26,442 nt of DNA from a virus, in the IMG/VR virus record IMGVR_UViG_3300017759_000059, positions 1 through 26,442 of that record; one strand, 5' to 3'. The number at the start of each line of letters is the position of its first letter. The first letter of the stretch is position 1. The translations under genes were made by a program, and so were the position numbers. The notes under the pieces were generated by a model. The model saw only the letters and a program-made list of their open reading frames with translations, ran no database searches and was not told the origin of the DNA. This document shows positions 8,950 to 26,021 of the stretch, piece after piece.

Positions 8950-9153
8950 ATGAAATCAGCAGACGTTAAATGCAATCACACTTATTGGTCAACTAGATTC
9001 CAGCGCAAGTGTATTTGCAGGACTGTCGCCAATTACTTTGTTGAGCTTGAATTTCAAGATCCCGCCAAGAATGGTTGGTATCATTGTCAAGAGATTGAAG
9101 AAGTTCCCGAATCACAAAAAAATGTCATTGACATCACCGACCTCATAAGGTAA
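8950..9153 (+). CDS. Small hypothetical protein (67 aa), probable mini-barrel
   Basis: One base after the previous stop. MKSADVKCNHTYWSTRFQRKC, ICRTVANYFVELEF and GWYHCQEIEEVP form a short beta-rich pattern; three Cys and one CNH could bind metal but spacing is not a known motif. The phrase CRTVANYFVELE is echoed by CRTMANKFCMVLE in the protein at 10947-11630, so the two share a module. Confidence 0.6.
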   Translation: MKSADVKCNHTYWSTRFQRKCICRTVANYFVELEFQDPAKNGWYHCQEIEEVPESQKNVIDITDLIR

Positions 9154-9156
9154 AAT
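9128..9156 (+). promoter_or_regulatory. Possible sigma70 promoter
   Basis: TTGACA 9128-9133, 17-bp spacer, TAAAAT 9151-9156, within the end of a coding region. The predicted RNA start falls at about 9163, right at the ATG of the next gene, so it would produce a leaderless message for that gene or serve the genes from 9317 on. Confidence 0.5.
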
Positions 9157-9162
9157 AATATC

Positions 9163-9330
9163 ATGTTTGAAATTATTGTAGCATCTATTATTGTTTTAAT
9201 TATTCGTAATCGTATTTTGCACGCACATCACCAACGACAGAAGGAAGCATTGTGGCGCGAAGTGATTCACAAAGTAGAGCAAAAAAGAAAACTAGACGAA
9301 CTTTACGGGAGAGATCATGAAACCTGGTGA
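9163..9330 (+). CDS. 55-aa membrane-anchored micropeptide
   Basis: MFEIIVASIIVLIIRNRIL gives one N-terminal membrane helix, followed by a highly charged helix (HHQRQKEALWREVIHKVEQKRK) of probable coiled-coil type facing the cytoplasm. No strong ribosome site. It overlaps the next gene by 14 nt. Confidence 0.6.
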   Translation: MFEIIVASIIVLIIRNRILHAHHQRQKEALWREVIHKVEQKRKLDELYGRDHETW

Positions 9331-9529
9331 TTTAATTTATTGGCACGAGGACGCCTGGTTAATGCGAGAAGGCGTACCCCCCACCATCAAGCACGCAGTG
9401 GTTGTTAGGCCATATGAGGACGCCCCAGCTGAGAGGGGCATTTGGCACGTTCTGGTTTTGGAAACCGGACTGCCAGGTGTTGTTCACGATACACCAAACA
9501 TAAAAATAAAGGTACCAGCCAATGTATAA
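9317..9529 (+). CDS. SH3/KOW-like mini-barrel protein (70 aa)
   Basis: Starts MKPGDLIYWHEDAW with GGGAGA upstream. The strand KHAVVVRPYE and the block WHVLVLETG..GVVHDT complete a small barrel. The end lacks the ESR tail and instead finishes VPANV, with an 8-nt overlap (ATGTATAA) to the next gene. Confidence 0.7.
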   Translation: MKPGDLIYWHEDAWLMREGVPPTIKHAVVVRPYEDAPAERGIWHVLVLETGLPGVVHDTPNIKIKVPANV

Positions 9530-9734
9530 GCGTGGAGACTTAGTATTTTTTGATAAAAGGGGATTCTTTGACTCAAAGAATTCGACGATAATGGGAGTCA
9601 TTATTAGTACCCTGAGCAACAATGGGTATGTAGATGTATTGCAAACTGACGGCGTAGTTTCATTCCGCCACGTAAGAGAGTTGGAGTTGGTAATTGAAGA
9701 CAGGCGATTTAGTAATGTGGAAGTATCACGGTAA
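9522..9734 (+). CDS. Mini-barrel cassette protein with stop-loss extension (70 aa)
   Basis: MYKRGDLVFFDKRG, STIMGVIISTL, YVDVLQTDGVVSFRHVRELELV is the barrel core. In the other cassettes the frame would stop at a TGA inside GGTGAT of the shared junction. Here that codon is CGA (GGCGAT), so translation runs on for nine more residues (RFSNVEVSR) inside the next gene, giving a 41-nt overlap. Confidence 0.7.
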   Translation: MYKRGDLVFFDKRGFFDSKNSTIMGVIISTLSNNGYVDVLQTDGVVSFRHVRELELVIEDRRFSNVEVSR

Positions 9735-9885
9735 ACTGGACCCCAAGAAGACAGGTATTATTGTTTCAGATTATGATTATCCTGGCAAGGACGGACTTTT
9801 GATGCAGAATGTTTACTGGTTCGACTGTCAGTGGGTTAGACCAATCCGGCAACAATTTCTAGAGGTAATCAATGAAAGTCGGTGA
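9694..9885 (+). CDS. Mini-barrel cassette protein, TTG start (63 aa)
   Basis: Start is TTG 9694, decided by position: the following codons (AAG ACA GGC GAT TTA GTA) match the ATG/GTG-started siblings and TTGGAG lies upstream. Product MKTGDLVMWKYHG...GIIVSDYD...NVYWFDCQWVRPIRQQFLEVINESR has the full barrel and the ESR ending. First member of the array. Confidence 0.75.
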   Translation: MKTGDLVMWKYHGKLDPKKTGIIVSDYDYPGKDGLLMQNVYWFDCQWVRPIRQQFLEVINESR

Positions 9886-10075
9886 TTTGGTTAAGTGGTC
9901 TTTTTCAGAACAATGTTATCACGCTGCTTTTCATGATGGTTATGAATTGACAGAAGATAGAAAATGTGGTATTATTATAGATAAGAATGAAAAGTATCAT
10001 TTTGTTTATTGGGTGAATGGAGAACTCAAGGCCCAAGCAGACGGTTCATTGGAGTTAATAGATGAAAGTAGGTGA
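9872..10075 (+). CDS. Mini-barrel cassette protein (67 aa)
   Basis: ATG 9872 overlaps the upstream gene by 14 nt. MKVGDLVKWSF, CGIIIDKNEKYHFVYWVNGELKAQADGSLELIDESR shows the family consensus most clearly: GDLV start, central G-I-I-x-D, then VYWVNGE and LELIxESR. Confidence 0.8.
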   Translation: MKVGDLVKWSFSEQCYHAAFHDGYELTEDRKCGIIIDKNEKYHFVYWVNGELKAQADGSLELIDESR

Positions 10076-10250
10076 TTTAGTGCAGAACGCCCAAGGACAC
10101 ACGGGCATAGTGACAGGCATGGGCTATGCTGGAAGCTGTCCGAGTTACGATGAGTGTCCTTTCCTGAATCCAGACGTTCATGTCGTGACTGCCAACGGCA
10201 AAAGGCTGTGGAGCTATAAAGCACTGGAGTTAATCAGTGAAAGCCGGTGA
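10062..10250 (+). CDS. Mini-barrel cassette protein (62 aa)
   Basis: ATG 10062, 14-nt overlap with the upstream gene. MKVGDLVQNAQGHTGIVTGMGYAG is KOW-like (GxxGIVxG). The middle holds a Cys pair (CPSYDEC), and the end is WSYKALELISESR. Confidence 0.8.
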   Translation: MKVGDLVQNAQGHTGIVTGMGYAGSCPSYDECPFLNPDVHVVTANGKRLWSYKALELISESR

Positions 10251-10446
10251 TTTGGTAAAGTTCGACCGTATTAACGGACACACCCGCGACATTAATGAGA
10301 AGGTAGCTGTTTATCTGGGTGAAGCCTTTATTCATCGCGATGATGGAGTAACAATTCAGAACCACAAGGTTTTGTTGCTTGGGGAGTCAACGCCGAGAAT
10401 TATTGATGTTCGCTTGCTTAGATGGTTGAGGAGATACTCAAAATGA
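10237..10446 (+). CDS. Mini-barrel cassette protein, GTG start (69 aa)
   Basis: GTG 10237 with GGAG upstream, 14-nt overlap. MKAGDLVKFDRING, VAVYLGEAFIHRDD, HKVLLLGESTPRIIDVRLLRWL. It ends LRRYSK rather than ESR, and its junction to the next gene is the ordinary ATGA overlap. Confidence 0.78.
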   Translation: MKAGDLVKFDRINGHTRDINEKVAVYLGEAFIHRDDGVTIQNHKVLLLGESTPRIIDVRLLRWLRRYSK

Positions 10447-10700
10447 AAGTCGGTGATTTAGTTACGCTGTCAGCGTACGGAAAAAAAGTAAAGAGAACAG
10501 GCTGGGTCAAAGAGGGAGACGTTGGTATAGTTATCAAGGACGATCTAAGGCTTGGATGGGCTACTTACAAAATCATGTGGAACCAATCAATCAGTAGACC
10601 TTCCTCTCATTTGGCTAGGGGAGTGGAATACAAATTTCGCGGCTCATCCTGGGACTGGTCAGTCACGTTCGACCGTCGCGACCTAAAGCATGTAAATTAA
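10443..10700 (+). CDS. Mini-barrel cassette protein (85 aa), last of array 1
   Basis: ATG 10443 (GAGGAG upstream) is preferred over an in-frame ATG at 10422 because the MKVGDLV opening begins here. VGDLVTLSAYGKKVKRTGWVKEGDVGIVIKDD, ATYKIMWN and DWSVTFDRRDLKHVN. It is longer than its siblings, with an insertion before the last strand. Confidence 0.78.
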   Translation: MKVGDLVTLSAYGKKVKRTGWVKEGDVGIVIKDDLRLGWATYKIMWNQSISRPSSHLARGVEYKFRGSSWDWSVTFDRRDLKHVN

Positions 10701-10703
10701 TTC

Positions 10704-10732
10704 TTGACAAATTCTTCAAATTCAAGTATAAT
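10704..10732 (+). promoter_or_regulatory. Sigma70-type promoter, consensus
   Basis: TTGACA 10704-10709, 17-bp spacer, TATAAT 10727-10732. Both boxes perfect. Drives the unit beginning at 10765. Confidence 0.85.
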
Positions 10733-13602: not shown

Positions 13603-14670
13603 ATGGCCGTTGACTTTGCTACATTTTCCCAGATCGTTCATCACGTAACTAACGTCCGCAAGCCTGTGTTGCTTCGCGGTCGTCACGGCATTGGCAAGTC
13701 CACTGTCGTGTATCAATGCGCTGCACAGCAAAACATGGAAGTTGTCGAGCGTCGTGCATCCCAGATGACCGAGGGCGACTTGGTTGGCTTGCCATCCATC
13801 GATGGTAACTCGACTTCATTCAACCCACCAGACTGGTTCAAGGCTGCATGTGACCGGCCTGTTGTATTGTTCCTTGACGAAGTCGACCGGGCGACCTTGG
13901 AAGTCCGCCAAGGTATTTTTGAGCTTACCGACTCTCGCAAGCTCAACGGACACACGCTCCACCCAGACACTCTTGTCTTTGCTGCTGTCAACGGCGGTGA
14001 GCATGGAGCGCAATACCAGGTAGGTGAGATGGACCCAGCCGAACTGGACCGCTGGACCGTGTTCGACATCGAGCCTTCCGTGGAGGACTGGCTATCTTGG
14101 GCGAAGGAATCCAATGTATCTGATGAGGTCTGGAACTTCATTAACGGCAACCGCGCCCACCTTGAGCATACAGACGACTTTGAGCCGAACAAGGTTTATC
14201 CTTCTCGTCGTTCATGGGAGCGTCTAGACCAGTGCCTGACACAGGCTGATCTACTCAAGGAAGCCAGTCCTGCACTCTACAACTTGACTGCTGCATTTGT
14301 TGGATTCGAAGCTGCCGTTGCTTTCAACGACTTCGTGCTGAATTATGACCGCCAGGTTACTGTCGAGGACATCTTAATCCATGGTAACTTTGCCAAGGTT
14401 GCAGACTTTGGCATCAACGACCACACTGCAATCATCGACAAGTTCGAAGCGGAGGAGACATTCCATAATGAGCTTGACCAAGAGTTGGTCGACAACTTGG
14501 CTCGATACTTCGTGATGCTTCCATCCGAGGTTGCCATGAAGCTCTGGACTGTGATGGGCAAGGGCGATGTTAATAACACCGTCAAACTGCACAAGTCTGA
14601 GGTTGATGGCGAGTCCGTTTCTAAGCACTTTGTCCGACTCATCAATGGGTCGGAGGAAGATAAGAAATAA
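13603..14670 (+). CDS. MoxR/CobS-type AAA+ ATPase
   Basis: 355 aa. Walker A GRHGIGKS (residues 26-33), Walker B VVLFLDEVD (87-95; D92, E93), sensor-1 N130 in AAVNGG, arginine finger in ELDRW (R150). The ASQMTEGDLVGLP segment (52-64) is typical of MoxR/AAA_5 proteins. These ATPases remodel partners that carry VWA domains; phage versions are often annotated as CobS-like. The partner is the next gene. AAGGAG start site. GC content looks higher than in the neighbouring small genes. Confidence 0.9.
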   Translation: MAVDFATFSQIVHHVTNVRKPVLLRGRHGIGKSTVVYQCAAQQNMEVVERRASQMTEGDLVGLPSIDGNSTSFNPPDWFKAACDRPVVLFLDEVDRATLEVRQGIFELTDSRKLNGHTLHPDTLVFAAVNGGEHGAQYQVGEMDPAELDRWTVFDIEPSVEDWLSWAKESNVSDEVWNFINGNRAHLEHTDDFEPNKVYPSRRSWERLDQCLTQADLLKEASPALYNLTAAFVGFEAAVAFNDFVLNYDRQVTVEDILIHGNFAKVADFGINDHTAIIDKFEAEETFHNELDQELVDNLARYFVMLPSEVAMKLWTVMGKGDVNNTVKLHKSEVDGESVSKHFVRLINGSEEDKK

Positions 14671-14673
14671 TTG

Positions 14674-14702
14674 TTGACAAATTGAACTACTTATAGTAAG
14701 AT
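14674..14702 (+). promoter_or_regulatory. Sigma70-type promoter for the metallopeptidase-VWA gene
   Basis: TTGACA 14674-14679, 17-bp spacer, TAAGAT 14697-14702. Confidence 0.7.
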
Positions 14703-14731
14703 ATAAGAGTAAATAACATTTGGAGTCCGTC

Positions 14732-15961
14732 ATGTCTGCTAAAGAATTTGATCTGAATCTTAACACCGCCCGTCTACTCATGGAGGAACCGTTCTTCGCG
14801 GCAATCTCTCGACGTATTGACAAGCGAGCATCTTACGCTATCCCCACCGCCGGGGTCATGATCAATCCCGACACTGCACAGTTTGAGATGCTTTACAATC
14901 CCAAGTTCTTTGCAGACTTGACAGACCTTGAGCGCACCGACATTCTCAAGCACGAGTTCTACCATGTACTATTCGAGCATGTTACTGGTCGTATGCCAAT
15001 CGATGTTAAACTAAAGTTGTGGAACATTGCAACTGACCTTGCTATCAACTCACACTTACAGAATCTACCCAAGGGTGGCTTGATTCCTGGCGAGCCAGGA
15101 ACGCCATTCGAGCACCTTCCTCGTGGTGAATCGGCCGAGTGGTATCTTGCCAACATGCCTGAGTTTGATAACGACAAGGGTAGCAACCAGTCAGGACCGT
15201 CGAGTTCTGAATCACAGGGCGAGGGCAGTTCTGGAGGCGACCCAAGCGACAGAGACAGTCAGTCTGACGGTATCCCCGACACGATCGATGACCACTCTGG
15301 TTGGCAAGAGTGCTCACAGGAAGTCAAGGACATGGCCAAGGAACGACTCAAGGAAGTTGTGCGTAAAGCTGCCGAAGAAGCAAGCGCCAGTAATCGGTGG
15401 GGTTCTGTATCTCAGGCTACTCGCAAGAAAGTTATGAAGATGCTTGAAACAAAGGTTGACTGGCGCAAGGTTCTTCGCTTCTTTGTCAAGTCTTCCCAGC
15501 GAGCTAACCGTTCTAGTTCAATCAAGCGTATCAACCGTCGCTACGCCTACGTCCACCCAGGTCGTAAAGCTAACCGAGTTGCACGAGTCGCCGTCTCTGT
15601 GGACCAATCTGGCTCTGTTGACGACAACATGCTTGCCATGTTCTTTGCAGAACTTAACAAGTTGGCGCAGATTGCGGAGTTTACCGTGATTCCATTCGAT
15701 ACGCAGGTTGATGAGGATAAGGTCTTTACCTGGAAGAAGGGGCAGACTAAGCTTCCTGAGCGAGTATTGCAGGGAGGTACTTGTTTTGAGGCTCCTACAG
15801 ATTATGTAAACAAAGAAGGGTTCGATGGTCATATCATTCTAACGGATATGTGCGCGCCCAAGCCCAAGCCCAGCAAGTGTCAGCGAATGTGGATGACTAC
15901 TAAGGAACATGCACAGCGCAACTACTTTTCGACAAATGAACGTGTCGTGGCAGTAGATTAA
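14732..15961 (+). CDS. Metallopeptidase-like plus VWA-like protein (DUF2201 type)
   Basis: 409 aa from ATG 14732 (TTGGAG upstream; an in-frame TTG at 14720 is less likely). N-terminal zinc-peptidase motif HEFYH (74-78). A low-complexity Ser/Gly/Asp linker spans about residues 148-195. The C-terminal VWA-like domain has a MIDAS-type D-x-S-x-S (VDQSGS, D291/S293/S295), then PFDTQV and a GGT motif (LQGGTCF). This is the DUF2201 architecture usually coded beside a MoxR ATPase, as here. The pair probably forms an ATP-driven metal-insertion or protein-remodelling complex; substrate unknown. Confidence 0.88.
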   Translation: MSAKEFDLNLNTARLLMEEPFFAAISRRIDKRASYAIPTAGVMINPDTAQFEMLYNPKFFADLTDLERTDILKHEFYHVLFEHVTGRMPIDVKLKLWNIATDLAINSHLQNLPKGGLIPGEPGTPFEHLPRGESAEWYLANMPEFDNDKGSNQSGPSSSESQGEGSSGGDPSDRDSQSDGIPDTIDDHSGWQECSQEVKDMAKERLKEVVRKAAEEASASNRWGSVSQATRKKVMKMLETKVDWRKVLRFFVKSSQRANRSSSIKRINRRYAYVHPGRKANRVARVAVSVDQSGSVDDNMLAMFFAELNKLAQIAEFTVIPFDTQVDEDKVFTWKKGQTKLPERVLQGGTCFEAPTDYVNKEGFDGHIILTDMCAPKPKPSKCQRMWMTTKEHAQRNYFSTNERVVAVD

Positions 15962-17339: not shown

Positions 17340-17518
17340 AGTTTGTTTCTATTGTATTTTGTTTGCTGTTCCTCACTGGCTGCCCACTCGAAGAAGATTG
17401 TGACAAGGTGATGCGTTGTGAAGACGATGTCGAGTTACTTTGCGACAAGAACGATTCGGGTTGCGGTGAAGACTGTCATTATTATGTTTACGAAAATTGC
17501 TACGAGGTCTGCAAATGA
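17336..17518 (+). CDS. Cys-rich lipoprotein (60 aa)
   Basis: Signal peptide MKFVSIVFCLLFLTGC with lipobox LTGC (lipid Cys16). The 45-residue mature part is acidic and holds seven more Cys (CD..MRCEDD..LLC..SGCGEDC..ENCYEVC), suggesting a disulfide-rich knot outside the cytoplasm. ATGA overlaps at both ends. Confidence 0.78.
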   Translation: MKFVSIVFCLLFLTGCPLEEDCDKVMRCEDDVELLCDKNDSGCGEDCHYYVYENCYEVCK

Positions 17519-17730
17519 AACTCGGAGAGCTGGTGAGTTACAAGATCGAACCTTGGGAGCAACTCAGTAGCCACTGTGTTACTAAAGAATGGGGTGTTGG
17601 TCTTGTTACTTGGTGGGATGGTCATGGCAAGTGTAGAGTTTTGTGGTCAAAGAAGGGGTTGGTTGTGCCTCACGATGATTGGGAATTAGTGCCTCATGCA
17701 AATCGGCGACCTGATAAAGTTCCAGTATGA
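17515..17730 (+). CDS. Mini-barrel cassette protein with stop-loss extension (71 aa)
   Basis: ATG 17515 overlaps the lipoprotein stop by 4 nt. MKLGELVSYKIEPW, WGVGLVTWWDGHGKCRVLWSKKGLVVPHDDWELVPHANR. At the junction the usual GGTGAC is GGCGAC, so the frame does not stop and adds RPDKVPV, overlapping the next gene by 35 nt. Confidence 0.72.
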   Translation: MKLGELVSYKIEPWEQLSSHCVTKEWGVGLVTWWDGHGKCRVLWSKKGLVVPHDDWELVPHANRRPDKVPV

Positions 17731-17875
17731 TGGCTACCATAAGTCGTATGGCCCCGGTGTTGTAACTAAGATTGAGTATGATCTAGGCGACGGAGAGGGC
17801 ACAGGCTACGCAATGTTTAATGAACTTTTGATGTTTAGATTCAGTGAAGTGGAGAAAATCAATGAAGCAAGGTGA
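17696..17875 (+). CDS. Mini-barrel cassette protein (59 aa)
   Basis: Start ATG 17696 lies inside the preceding gene. MQIGDLIKFQYDG, GPGVVTKIEYDLGDGEGTGYAMFNELLMFRFSEVEKINEAR: GDL opening, G-V-V strand, and the ending INEAR in place of ISESR. 14-nt overlap with the next cassette confirms the frame. Confidence 0.75.
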   Translation: MQIGDLIKFQYDGYHKSYGPGVVTKIEYDLGDGEGTGYAMFNELLMFRFSEVEKINEAR

Positions 17876-18038
17876 CATTGTAAAATACGGACATTCAAAG
17901 TATAGCGACGGGTCAGACGTGACAGCCGTCGTCCTTTATGTAAATGAAGAAGGTGGCACACTCAAGGTGTTGGACAAGTTTGGCAACGTAGATTGGTTCG
18001 TCACAAGTCACTGTGAGGTTGTCAGTGAAAGTCGGTGA
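17862..18038 (+). CDS. Mini-barrel cassette protein (58 aa)
   Basis: ATG 17862 with GGAG upstream (an in-frame GTG at 17844 is less likely). MKQGDIVKYGHSKYSDGSDVTAVVLYVNEEG, LKVLDKFGNVDWFVTSHCEVVSESR. Full cassette form with ESR ending. Confidence 0.8.
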   Translation: MKQGDIVKYGHSKYSDGSDVTAVVLYVNEEGGTLKVLDKFGNVDWFVTSHCEVVSESR

Positions 18039-18237
18039 TTTGGTTAAAGAGAACTGGGGGCTAGAACGGACTGCCGTTGTGCTTTCTCCAGTTCGTCGAT
18101 CGACGCCCAGTGACAACCATTTTTTAGGCGTAGCGTATCATGATGTACACCCAGTCGTTGATGTTTTGTTGTTCGAAGCTGGTGTCAAAGTGGTGAGAGA
18201 CATTGATGGCTTGGAGGTTATCAGTGAAAGTCGGTGA
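18025..18237 (+). CDS. Mini-barrel cassette protein, GTG start (70 aa)
   Basis: GTG 18025 at the shared junction, 14-nt overlap. MKVGDLVKENWGLERTAVVLSPVRR; VVDVLLFEAGVKVVRDIDGLEVISESR. Confidence 0.8.
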   Translation: MKVGDLVKENWGLERTAVVLSPVRRSTPSDNHFLGVAYHDVHPVVDVLLFEAGVKVVRDIDGLEVISESR

Positions 18238-18415
18238 CTTAGTAATAGACAACCATCCAAACCGAGGTATGGGTCCTGAAAGAATTGGTGTACTTGTCAA
18301 TCAGACTCGATTAGGCACATCATCATTAAACAAGTCGTTTAGGGTGTTGTGGCGTGATGGCACCATTGGAAATAATGTTTGGGATTATGACTTAAAAATA
18401 GTAAAAAGTCCTTGA
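18224..18415 (+). CDS. Mini-barrel cassette protein, GTG start (63 aa), last of array 2
   Basis: GTG 18224 preceded by TTGGAGG, 14-nt overlap. MKVGDLVIDNHPNRGMGPERIGVLVNQ; SFRVLWRDGTIGNNVWDYDLKIVKSP. It ends without ESR; its stop overlaps the next promoter. Confidence 0.8.
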   Translation: MKVGDLVIDNHPNRGMGPERIGVLVNQTRLGTSSLNKSFRVLWRDGTIGNNVWDYDLKIVKSP

Positions 18416-18440
18416 CTTTCAGTAGTTTAGCTGCTATACT
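18412..18440 (+). promoter_or_regulatory. Sigma70-type promoter with extended -10
   Basis: TTGACT 18412-18417, 17-bp spacer, TGC before TATACT 18435-18440. Confidence 0.82.
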
Positions 18441-20550: not shown

Positions 20551-20623
20551 GGGCTACTAGCTCAACTGGTAGAGCATCGGACTTTTAATCCGCAGGTTCA
20601 GGGTTCGAGTCCCTGGTGGCCCA
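20551..20623 (+). tRNA. tRNA-Lys (UUU)
   Basis: Acceptor GGGCTAC/GTGGCCC (one G-U), D-arm GCTCAACTGGTAGAGC, anticodon loop CTTTTAA with anticodon TTT, T-arm CAGGG-TTCGAGT-CCCTG, discriminator A. CCA is not encoded. Confidence 0.95.
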
Positions 20624-20649
20624 CGAAAATCTTATGAAAGGAGAATGAG

Positions 20650-20829
20650 ATGGATAATAACAAACTTGCTGGCTATTGCTTTTGGGCTTCGCTGGCTTCA
20701 GTTGTAGGTTCAATCGCTGTGTGGTCCCTCACCGGAGATGCAGACCCAGCACATGCTGAGAGATTCGGCATCTTCATCGGCTTGTGGGCACCAACTTTGA
20801 TGGGTCTTGCAAACTGGTTTAGAAAATAA
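20650..20829 (+). CDS. Two-span membrane protein (59 aa) between tRNA genes
   Basis: AAAGGAG site 8 nt upstream. Two hydrophobic segments, YCFWASLASVVGSIAVWSL (9-27) and FGIFIGLWAPTLMGLANWF (39-57), joined by a short acidic loop GDADPAHAER. A holin-like topology but no known family. Confidence 0.7.
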   Translation: MDNNKLAGYCFWASLASVVGSIAVWSLTGDADPAHAERFGIFIGLWAPTLMGLANWFRK

Positions 20830-20835
20830 AATCAA

Positions 20836-20907
<72 letters not shown>

Positions 20908-20920
20908 TATTTTTTTATTT

Positions 20921-20993
20921 GCGAGAATAGCTCAACTGGTAGAGCGCGACGTTGCCAACGTCGAGGTTGTGGGTTCGAGTCCCGCTTCTCGCT
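20921..20993 (+). tRNA. tRNA-Gly (GCC)
   Basis: Acceptor GCGAGAA/TTCTCGC, anticodon stem CGACG/CGTCG around TTGCCAA (anticodon GCC), T-arm GTGGG/CCCGC. No CCA. Confidence 0.94.
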
Positions 20994-20999
20994 CAATTT

Positions 21000-21076
21000 C
21001 GGGGTGTAGCGCAGTCTGGCAGCGCATCTGGTTTGGGACCAGAGGGTCGTAGGTTCAAATCCTACCATCCCGACCA
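21000..21076 (+). tRNA. tRNA-Pro (UGG)
   Basis: Acceptor CGGGGTG/CATCCCG, anticodon loop TTTGGGA (anticodon TGG) on stem TCTGG/CCAGA, T-arm GTAGG-TTCAAAT-CCTAC. The only one of the six with an encoded 3' CCA. Confidence 0.94.
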
Positions 21077-21078
21077 AA

Positions 21079-21160
21079 GGCTGGGTGGTGGAACTGGTAT
21101 ACACAGCAGACTTAAAATCTGCCGCCTTCGGGATTGCGGGTTCGAGTCCCGCTCTAGCTA
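21079..21160 (+). tRNA. tRNA-Leu (UAA)
   Basis: Class II tRNA with long variable arm (CGCCTTCGGGATTG). Anticodon loop CTTAAAA (anticodon TAA) on GCAGA/TCTGC, T-arm GCGGG-TTCGAGT-CCCGC. Acceptor GGCTGGG/TCTAGCT has three G-U pairs, including the first, as in some bacterial tRNA-Leu. Followed by CTTTTTTT (21161-21168), which may end the tRNA transcript. Confidence 0.9.
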
Positions 21161-21179
21161 CTTTTTTTAATCTTTTTTG

Positions 21180-21208
21180 TTGACAAAGTGTTGAAATTTT
21201 GATATACT
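21180..21208 (+). promoter_or_regulatory. Sigma70-type promoter for tRNA-Arg and following genes
   Basis: TTGACA 21180-21185, 17-bp spacer, TATACT 21203-21208. Confidence 0.85.
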
Positions 21209-21231
21209 GTAAGTATAGAAAATGAGGATTT

Positions 21232-21304
21232 GCCCTGGTAGCTCAGTGGATAGAGCATCGGACTTCTAATCCGCAGGTCGTAGGTTCGACTCCTACCTGG
21301 GGCG
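21232..21304 (+). tRNA. tRNA-Arg (UCU)
   Basis: Acceptor GCCCTGG/CTGGGGC, D-arm GCTCAGTGGATAGAGC, anticodon loop CTTCTAA (anticodon TCT), T-arm GTAGG-TTCGACT-CCTAC. No CCA. Much of its core (AGAGCATCGGACTT and TAATCCGCAGGT) matches tRNA-Lys at 20551, so the two probably share a recent ancestor. Confidence 0.94.
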
Positions 21305-21324
21305 CAAATATTTTGGTGGACGAG

Positions 21325-24131: not shown

Positions 24132-24185
24132 TATTGAGAATGAGGGATTGGCTTTTATTCTCAATAATCAAAACGGGCATTGCCC
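24132..24185 (+). promoter_or_regulatory. Structured 5' leader: two hairpins
   Basis: TATTGAGAAT (24132-24141) pairs perfectly with ATTCTCAATA (24157-24166), 10 bp, loop GAGGGATTGGCTTTT. A second hairpin GGGC-ATT-GCCC lies at 24175-24185. Together they fill most of the untranslated leader before ATG 24211. Confidence 0.6.
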
Positions 24186-24210
24186 ACAATACCTCGAAAG
24201 GGTAAACATC

Positions 24211-24456
24211 ATGAAGCGTATCGTAAGCAACATTCAAAATCTAGGTTTCACCATCATGAACGAGGCAGTCGAAGGCAGCAAGCAAAAGCCTGCTGGTATC
24301 GTTCTCGACCAAACCCTTGTCAACGGTGAGTCACAAGGCGTAAGCGTCCGACTCATCAACGGCAAGCAGCGCTCTGCTGCTGTAAAGCTTGACCGAGCTG
24401 CACTCGGTGATCTTCAAGAGGCACTCAACGAGGTGCTGGACAAAGAAGACGCATAA
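24211..24456 (+). CDS. Paralog A: PC4-like-fold candidate, rightward copy (81 aa)
   Basis: ATG 24211 with AAGGG upstream. SNIQNLGFTIMNEAVEG...GIVLDQTLVNGESQGVSVRLINGKQRSAAVKLDRAALGDLQEALNEVLDKEDA: beta strands followed by one C-terminal helix. Paralog of the - strand protein at 25711-25947: shared NIQNL, DQT-[LI]-[VL]-NG-x-S, VS-[VF]-RL-[IV]-NG, SAAVKLDR and [DL]L-x-EA-x-x-E-[VI]-LD. The strand-strand-helix end recalls PC4-type ssDNA-binding folds, but I cannot confirm this. First gene of its operon. Confidence 0.8.
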   Translation: MKRIVSNIQNLGFTIMNEAVEGSKQKPAGIVLDQTLVNGESQGVSVRLINGKQRSAAVKLDRAALGDLQEALNEVLDKEDA

Positions 24457-25710: not shown

Positions 25711-25947
25711 CTAGAAATCGCCTTCTGTGTCGAGGATTTCGGTGACCGCTTCAAGCAGATCGACGCATGCTTGCCGATCGAGCTTGACAGCAGCGGACTT
25801 GCGTCCACCGTTCACAAGGCGGAATGATACCGCAGCGCTCTTGCCGTTAAGAATGGTCTGGTCAATGGTCATGCCAGCCTTCTCGTCCGCGTTAGCGATA
25901 ACTAGGTTGAGGTTTTGAATGTTGTTCTTCTGTCGTCGTAAAGCCAT
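25711..25947 (-). CDS. Paralog A': leftward copy (78 aa)
   Basis: ATG at 25947 with AAAGGAG 6 nt upstream; longer in-frame starts lack a ribosome site. MALRRQKNNIQNLNLVIANADEKAGMTIDQTILNGKSAAVSFRLVNGGRKSAAVKLDRQACVDLLEAVTEILDTEGDF. Roughly half its residues match the + strand paralog at 24211-24456, including the uninterrupted SAAVKLDR. First gene of the leftward operon, driven by the strongest promoter in the window. Confidence 0.82.
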   Translation of the reverse strand: MALRRQKNNIQNLNLVIANADEKAGMTIDQTILNGKSAAVSFRLVNGGRKSAAVKLDRQACVDLLEAVTEILDTEGDF

Positions 25948-25967
25948 TATAGGCTCCTTTCTTATTT

Positions 25968-25979
25968 GCGCCGTAGCGC
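25968..25979 (-). promoter_or_regulatory. UNCG-type hairpin in the leader of paralog A'
   Basis: On the - strand GCGC-TACG-GCGC: a C(UACG)G tetraloop, one of the most stable known, about 20 nt before the ATG. Confidence 0.55.
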
Positions 25980-26021
25980 GTCGTGTTGAATAATTCAGCC
26001 TTATTGCCAAATTACTCTGTA

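Follow-up and report, generated by a model that had tools for sequence, protein, structure and literature searches.

Short conserved words at gene boundaries are found in lambdoid phages, where they are possible guides of modular exchange; such words are not known to be dual-coding overlaps of start, stop and ribosome site or to border arrays of paralogues. Integron arrays are composed of promoterless one-gene cassettes which share a common boundary sequence and vary in content between strains. Among T4-type phages, shuffling by PeSL elements, in which a promoter and a stem-loop lie between genes, has been described (Arbiol et al. 2010; Comeau et al. 2014, as presented in PMC4503421), while in laboratory T4 recombination at microhomologies of 2-10 bp leads to gene amplification and deletion, for example at dmd-tifA (PMC9391042).

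The arrays described here share with the PeSL system, as presented in PMC4503421, a T4-type phage background, short repeats between genes and whole-gene homologous exchange without an integrase. The PeSL repeat is intergenic, with a promoter and a stem-loop, whereas the repeat described here lies within overlapping coding sequence, where it serves as stop, ribosome site and start at once, and lacks a stem-loop; the genes carried, in long arrays, mostly encode a single protein fold. No early promoter with stem-loop terminator of the PeSL kind was found between the array genes, where 14-nt overlaps leave no intergenic space. The features listed above for integrons are also shared, but here there is no integrase (0/17 large relatives), no folded attC-like site was found (the junction consensus forms stems of at most 4 bp), and the junctions are coding and overlap genes. 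The T4 microhomologies likewise involve phage recombination at short repeats which alters gene copy number, but they are accidental and unique (PMC9391042), whereas here a conserved, purpose-fitted junction stands at nearly every cassette. No account of the junction or the array was found in the searchable literature, outside of which most subscription journals lie. The system is filed here as a variant of integrase-free modular exchange, in which an exchange site inside overlapping genes is new compared to the intergenic PeSL.

The window (the whole stretch of DNA analysed) is a complete IMG/VR record of 26,442 bases. It carries two arrays of genes for SH3-like barrels, at 9317-10700 and 17515-18415 (Table 1), with products of 60-85 amino acids which begin with MKxGDLV and mostly end with LE[V/L]I[S/N]ESR. 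An overlap of exactly 14 nt, claimed by the sequence-only reading for six junctions, was confirmed at all six (9694-9885/9872, 9872-10075/10062, 10062-10250/10237, 17696-17875/17862, 17862-18038/18025 and 18025-18237/18224), and a seventh joins the non-barrel gene at 9163-9330 to the first barrel at 9317. The further claim that the listed starts share one junction held for most of them; the exceptions are 10443, where the overlap is the 4-nt ATGA, and 9694 and 17696, which have GGC heads. In these two heads (the former with a TTG start) GGC replaces GGT and the embedded TGA is lost, so that the upstream gene reads on to give overlaps of 41 and 35 nt; these natural variants illustrate the working of the junction. 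With up to 3 mismatches allowed, the window contains six copies of the head word, compared to none in 100 dinucleotide shuffles.

Table 1. Barrel genes, junctions and promoter-like sites in the window.
Feature	Position	Strand	Sequence or motif	Comment
Barrel cassette, first in array 1	9317..9529	+	MKPGDLIYW...	14-nt overlap with non-barrel gene 9163-9330
Barrel gene	9522..9734	+	MYKRGDLVFF...	Upstream overlap 8 nt; C-terminus lengthened because of GGC in next head
Barrel cassette	9694..9885	+	MKTGDLVMW...	TTG start; upstream overlap 41 nt
Barrel cassette	9872..10075	+	MKVGDLVKW...	IDESR end
Barrel cassette	10062..10250	+	MKVGDLVQNAQGHTG...	AlphaFold2 model pLDDT 89, five strands
Barrel cassette	10237..10446	+	MKAGDLVKFDR...	
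Final barrel, array 1	10443..10700	+		Upstream overlap 4 nt (ATGA)
Opening barrel, array 2	17515..17730	+	MKLGELVSYKIEPWE...	
Barrel cassette	17696..17875	+	MQIGDLIKF...	GGC head, 35-nt overlap; missing here in L015/L127
Barrel cassette	17862..18038	+	MKQGDIVKYGHSKY...	
Barrel cassette	18025..18237	+	MKVGDLVKENWG...	Followed by two more cassettes in L015/L127
Terminal barrel, array 2	18224..18415	+	DNHPNRMG type	AlphaFold2 pLDDT 87.8, SH3-like barrel
Junction, non-barrel gene to first barrel	9305..9336	+	ACGGGAGAGATCATGAAACCTGGTGATTTAAT	14-nt overlap, without ESR tail
Dual-coding junction	9860..9891	+	TAGAGGTAATCAATGAAAGTCGGTGATTTGGT	-12..+19 around start codon
Dual-coding junction	10050..10081	+	TGGAGTTAATAGATGAAAGTAGGTGATTTAGT	
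Dual-coding junction	10225..10256	+	TGGAGTTAATCAGTGAAAGCCGGTGATTTGGT	
Dual-coding junction	17850..17881	+	TGGAGAAAATCAATGAAGCAAGGTGACATTGT	Divergent
Dual-coding junction	18013..18044	+	GTGAGGTTGTCAGTGAAAGTCGGTGATTTGGT	
Dual-coding junction	18212..18243	+	TGGAGGTTATCAGTGAAAGTCGGTGACTTAGT	
Sigma-70-like promoter before array 1	9128..9156	+	TTGACA-17-TAAAAT	11/12; consensus match only
Sigma-70-like promoter directly after array 1	10704..10732	+	TTGACA-17-TATAAT	12/12; consensus match only
Sigma-70-like promoter directly after array 2	18412..18440	+	TTGACT-17-TATACT	Consensus match only

Strong promoter-like sites were found only at the array borders, with the exception of one within a gene at 9947. 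There were no terminator-like matches in array 1, and the single match in array 2 (18065-18078) is intragenic, the number being no higher than chance. A barrel of the DNHPNRMG type repeatedly closes its run and has a gap behind it (52 nt in L041, L074 and L253); together with the promoter-like site after each array, it looks as if it were a terminal cassette bearing the next promoter. Between the arrays (13603-15961) lie a MoxR-like ATPase gene and then a VWA/metallopeptidase-like gene, the latter with relatives in 68 viral loci and only remote matches (22-31% identity) in annotated phage records. The window also contains six tRNA genes (Lys, Gly, Gly, Pro, Leu and Arg) at 20551-21305 on the + strand and, near the end of the record, two related small proteins on opposite strands (24148-24456, +; 25711-26010, -) with the pattern ...NIQNL...DQT.LNG.S..VS.RL.NG..RSAAVKLDR....

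The shared junction reads approximately TGGAGGTnATCA[A/G]TGAAAGTCGGTGATTTGGT, the conserved DNA spanning approximately -12 to +19 relative to the start codon (818 overlapped heads), and each cassette has the head RTGAAAGTCGGTGATTTGGT and the tail TGGAGGTnATC. The approximately 32 nt of the tail-head joint do four jobs: they code for the end of the upstream protein (its final strand and tail, LEVI-[S/N]ESR), provide a Shine-Dalgarno sequence (GGAGG approximately 7 nt ahead of the start), open the next protein with its start codon and MKVGDLV, and contain the upstream stop codon, which is embedded in the GGT GAT codons of the head. TTG GAG GTT ATC before the start is thus both the last strand LEVI and the Shine-Dalgarno sequence, while ATG AAA GTC GGT GAT shifted by one frame reads xAT GAA AGT CGG TGA; the upstream frame ends in ESR-stop because MKVGD in the other frame forces it. 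The dual reading was therefore present as claimed, and part of the constancy of the junction is coding constraint.

The junction pattern was identified in at least 120 stretches of IMG/VR viral contigs, and the same junction was found more than 1000 times in uncultured marine phages (1036 distinct junctions). Adjacent recognised barrels in the collected loci overlapped by 14 nt in 421 cases and by 4 nt in 43, other arrangements being rare. The forward word was present in 31/31 large relatives, on a single strand in each, compared to 0/31 for the reversed control. Eleven large viral records carry 16-30 barrels per genome, and the 1040 distinct barrel proteins fell into 566 clusters at 45% identity. 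At 168 of the 1036 junctions the upstream frame is apparently not a barrel, some of these being chance frames, and the junction system can thus also carry small genes of other kinds. Non-barrel genes with the same 14-nt junction (in L083, L092, L014, L172, L202 and L227) included GIY-YIG nuclease-like and SWIM zinc-finger-like genes, the families being judged by eye; nuclease cargo could in principle start recombination.

Array relatives were absent among annotated and cultured phage records in both DNA and tblastn searches. Only five metagenome-derived contigs in cellular genome collections gave matches, at least one of which is clearly phage by its neighbouring genes. A 2.8-Mb metagenome-derived WOR-3 'chromosome' (L231; CP070664.1, approximately 2.1435-2.1445 Mb) has eight barrel matches with the same junction, and this region may be either a prophage or a phage contig that was joined to it.

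The claim that barrel middles diverge while the junction stays constant was borne out across the 1036 distinct junctions, where DNA identity was 73% for junctions and 27%, which is near chance, for barrel bodies. One explanation is that the arrays are ancient tandem duplicates, in which the junction is constant only because MKVGD must give ESR-stop. This conversion is indeed mechanical (AAA for K gives E/S, GTC or GTA for V gives R, and GGT GAY gives the stop), and codons just 3' of the dual-coded stretch vary freely. The third base of the Val codon of the head (head codon 2), however, is synonymous in both frames (GTC/GTA both encode Val; CGG/AGG both encode Arg), and it was C in 508/591 cases (86%) and in 443/521 (85%) when one sequence per protein cluster was counted, compared to an expected 38% (codon use, both frames) or 51% (Val alone). 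Heads without an overlap also keep GTC (55% of Val codons, compared to 18% within genes) and GGT (68% compared to 31%), as if derived from overlapped positions. Junction identity is thus higher than coding need alone would give, and coding constraint, as judged from these alignments, accounts for part of the junction constancy and not all of it. Translation initiation or an mRNA constraint, in place of recombination, could also conserve the doubly synonymous base. As cassette content and order also differ between strains 99% identical (see below), which contradicts fixed duplicates unless the contigs are misassembled, duplication with coding constraint is considered improbable as a full explanation.

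Pairwise differences between junctions were 8.08/32 within one locus and 8.58/32 between loci. As this likeness within a locus is only slightly greater, concerted evolution inside a genome appears to be weak, and a pool shared between phages is more likely. The conservation of gene neighbours agrees with this, those of barrels being approximately half as conserved as those of other genes, as determined with a crude gene caller.

The nearest relatives of the window are only approximately 79-81% identical to it, and at this distance (approximately 80% nucleotide identity) flanking genes are kept and cassettes differ; the strain-level events given below were seen in relatives. Compared to the window, array 2 of L015 and L127 has two extra barrels before it, two extra inside and one fewer elsewhere. 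The 10062-type cassette, which in the window comes after those of the 9694 and 9872 types, lies ahead of both in L127 and L128, and a homologue of the array 2 cassette 18224 lies in array 1 of L128. In another phage, L253, 14-nt junctions link one gene after another, many of the cassettes being those of the window in a different order and one family occurring twice, and one of its cassettes is 97% identical to that at 9694..9885. Shared barrels often hold their relative order, as in array 2 of the window and L015.

Between L135 and L182, which have an approximately 99.5% identical backbone, the same slots hold different barrels, another slot holds one barrel in one strain and three genes in the other, and two shared barrels are in swapped order. 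L074 differs from L091 and L029 (98.6%) in one 140-nt body, after which 100% identity resumes, and L019 has one additional cassette within 73.6 kb that is otherwise 99.9% identical. Contigs which are 97.5-99.9% identical showed 20 structural differences in 286.7 kb, few and not all independent, of which 13 fell in barrels (9.7% of the DNA); this gives 0.47 events per kb of barrel DNA compared to 0.027 elsewhere, approximately 17-fold (binomial P =2.7e-9), in strain pairs that are not a blind sample since barrel families were recognised by the head motif. Breakpoints mostly lay from +13 to +23 past one start codon and from -14 to +4 around the next, i.e. within the junction, and clean cassette insertions and deletions were flanked by direct repeats of the junction word of 12-27 nt; in a few cases one of the two boundaries lies beyond the word. 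Three near-identical pairs had unchanged arrays (15, 22 and 8 barrels, with no event), which indicates that turnover is moderate, and two further searches for relatives gave no more strains. At the level of compared contigs these insertions, deletions, replacements and reorderings, with breakpoints in the junction, demonstrate cassette mobility and refute a fixed cassette number and order.

Since every strain pair consists of metagenome contigs, the changes might have been produced by assemblers joining different cassettes via the repeated junction. The longest exact junction repeat per locus, however, had a median of 17 nt, measured at least 33 nt in 0.4% of cases and stayed below 41 nt throughout, so that assembly with longer words would not be confused. 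Identical long arrays were also found in contigs of different samples (15/15 and 20/21 barrels), one cassette genotype was common to contigs of two samples (L091 and L029), and the same type of change was seen in different relatives. An assembly artefact is hardly credible on these data.

It may also be that recombination is random and illegitimate, with breaks anywhere and only exchanges at gene borders surviving selection, in which case the junction would be the outcome of the process and not what drives it. Ordinary gene borders outside the junction were indeed used by some exchanges in these strains (one left breakpoint falls on a bare ATG), 2-10 bp can be enough for recombination in T4 (PMC9391042), and junction breakpoints are expected for any whole-gene exchange between junction-sharing genes, so that in this respect the data fit targeted and selection-filtered exchange alike. 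Against this stand the far greater number of events per kb in barrel DNA and the direct repeats that flank clean insertions and deletions, which argue for an active role of the junction, and the conservation of its DNA above coding need. This alternative is considered unlikely, though it keeps some weight.

Precise boundaries and a short, conserved junction would also be expected if a recombinase, so far unrecognised, used the junction as an att-like site. Tyrosine integrase, serine resolvase and RecT were found in 0/17 large relatives, though, the consensus forms stems of at most 4 bp, breakpoints are scattered across approximately 30 nt and do not fall on one base, and junctions differ from one another at approximately 8 of 32 bases; site-specific recombination is accordingly regarded as very improbable. 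A search for an att-like palindrome in the junction gave none. A RecA/UvsX-type strand-exchange protein was present in 17/17 large relatives, and this, together with the missing recombinases, fits the description of the system as 'integrase-free'. The Gp23 T4-type major capsid protein was found above the family cut-off in 16/17 large relatives; its gene was not seen in the window itself, a 26-kb fragment.

AlphaFold2 models of two barrels of the window (pLDDT 87.8 and 89.0) gave a five-stranded SH3-like small barrel in which a short helix precedes the last strand. The best PDB match with Foldseek was YorP of B. subtilis (2heq; E 0.008, probability 1.0), a protein of the SPbeta prophage, followed by Tudor domains, and profile matches to the KOW regions of NusG and uL24 in PDB were weak. 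The predicted SH3-like fold, as in YorP, KOW and Tudor domains, is common to the cassette proteins, but nearly all of them have no significant Pfam sequence match: scans of single barrels against Pfam and PHROGs gave no assignment, and the Pfam KOW model matched 1 of 98 members (E 0.0066). Closer structural matches than YorP were found among predicted viral proteins (E 3e-4). The closest BFVD structures are many serially numbered unnamed proteins (A0A516M7xx and A0A516MBxx), which probably belong to a few uncultured viruses with similar arrays. The pN/pS of related barrels was 0.19-0.24, which indicates functional proteins under purifying selection; barrel variety arises by unit swapping and not by rapid point change.

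It is considered likely that the arrays are an integrase-free system of interchangeable SH3-like barrel cassettes, exchanged by short-homology recombination at the dual-coding junction through a pathway that we infer. The arrays would be operons of small barrel genes, and since each cassette sets its own frame, any cassette between two junctions could enter, leave, be exchanged or change place with every frame, ribosome site and stop left intact. The barrel repertoire would then be altered when two junctions, which are identical over 12-27 nt at clean insertions and deletions, recombine while phages co-infect a cell or replicate, most probably through the UvsX pathway of the phage itself. The junction as a homology arm for this pathway is plausible because T4 recombines at 2-10 bp, a length which 20-30 nt exceeds. 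The earlier idea of cassettes shuffled by recombination gains support from the whole-gene changes at the junction between strains, the pathway itself being putative. Selection would favour a shifting repertoire of small binding proteins, for example in host takeover or counter-defence.

More tentatively, the junction of stop, ribosome site and start may have been shaped and kept as a recombination arm, by which a phage clade might trade an integrase-free pool of mini-proteins of one fold (566 clusters at 45% identity among 1040 sampled proteins, with 16-30 in each genome), whose turnover between strains would outpace point mutation; this is possible, though somewhat doubtful. The arrays represent natural integrase-free plug-and-play genes, in which a single overlap carries stop, ribosome site and start for any unit in any order, and the same design could be used as a scarless operon-assembly junction. 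The system helps to account for the sets of small genes which large marine phages maintain and rearrange, and the junction provides a searchable signature for a large family of phage mini-proteins which may act on hosts or host defences.
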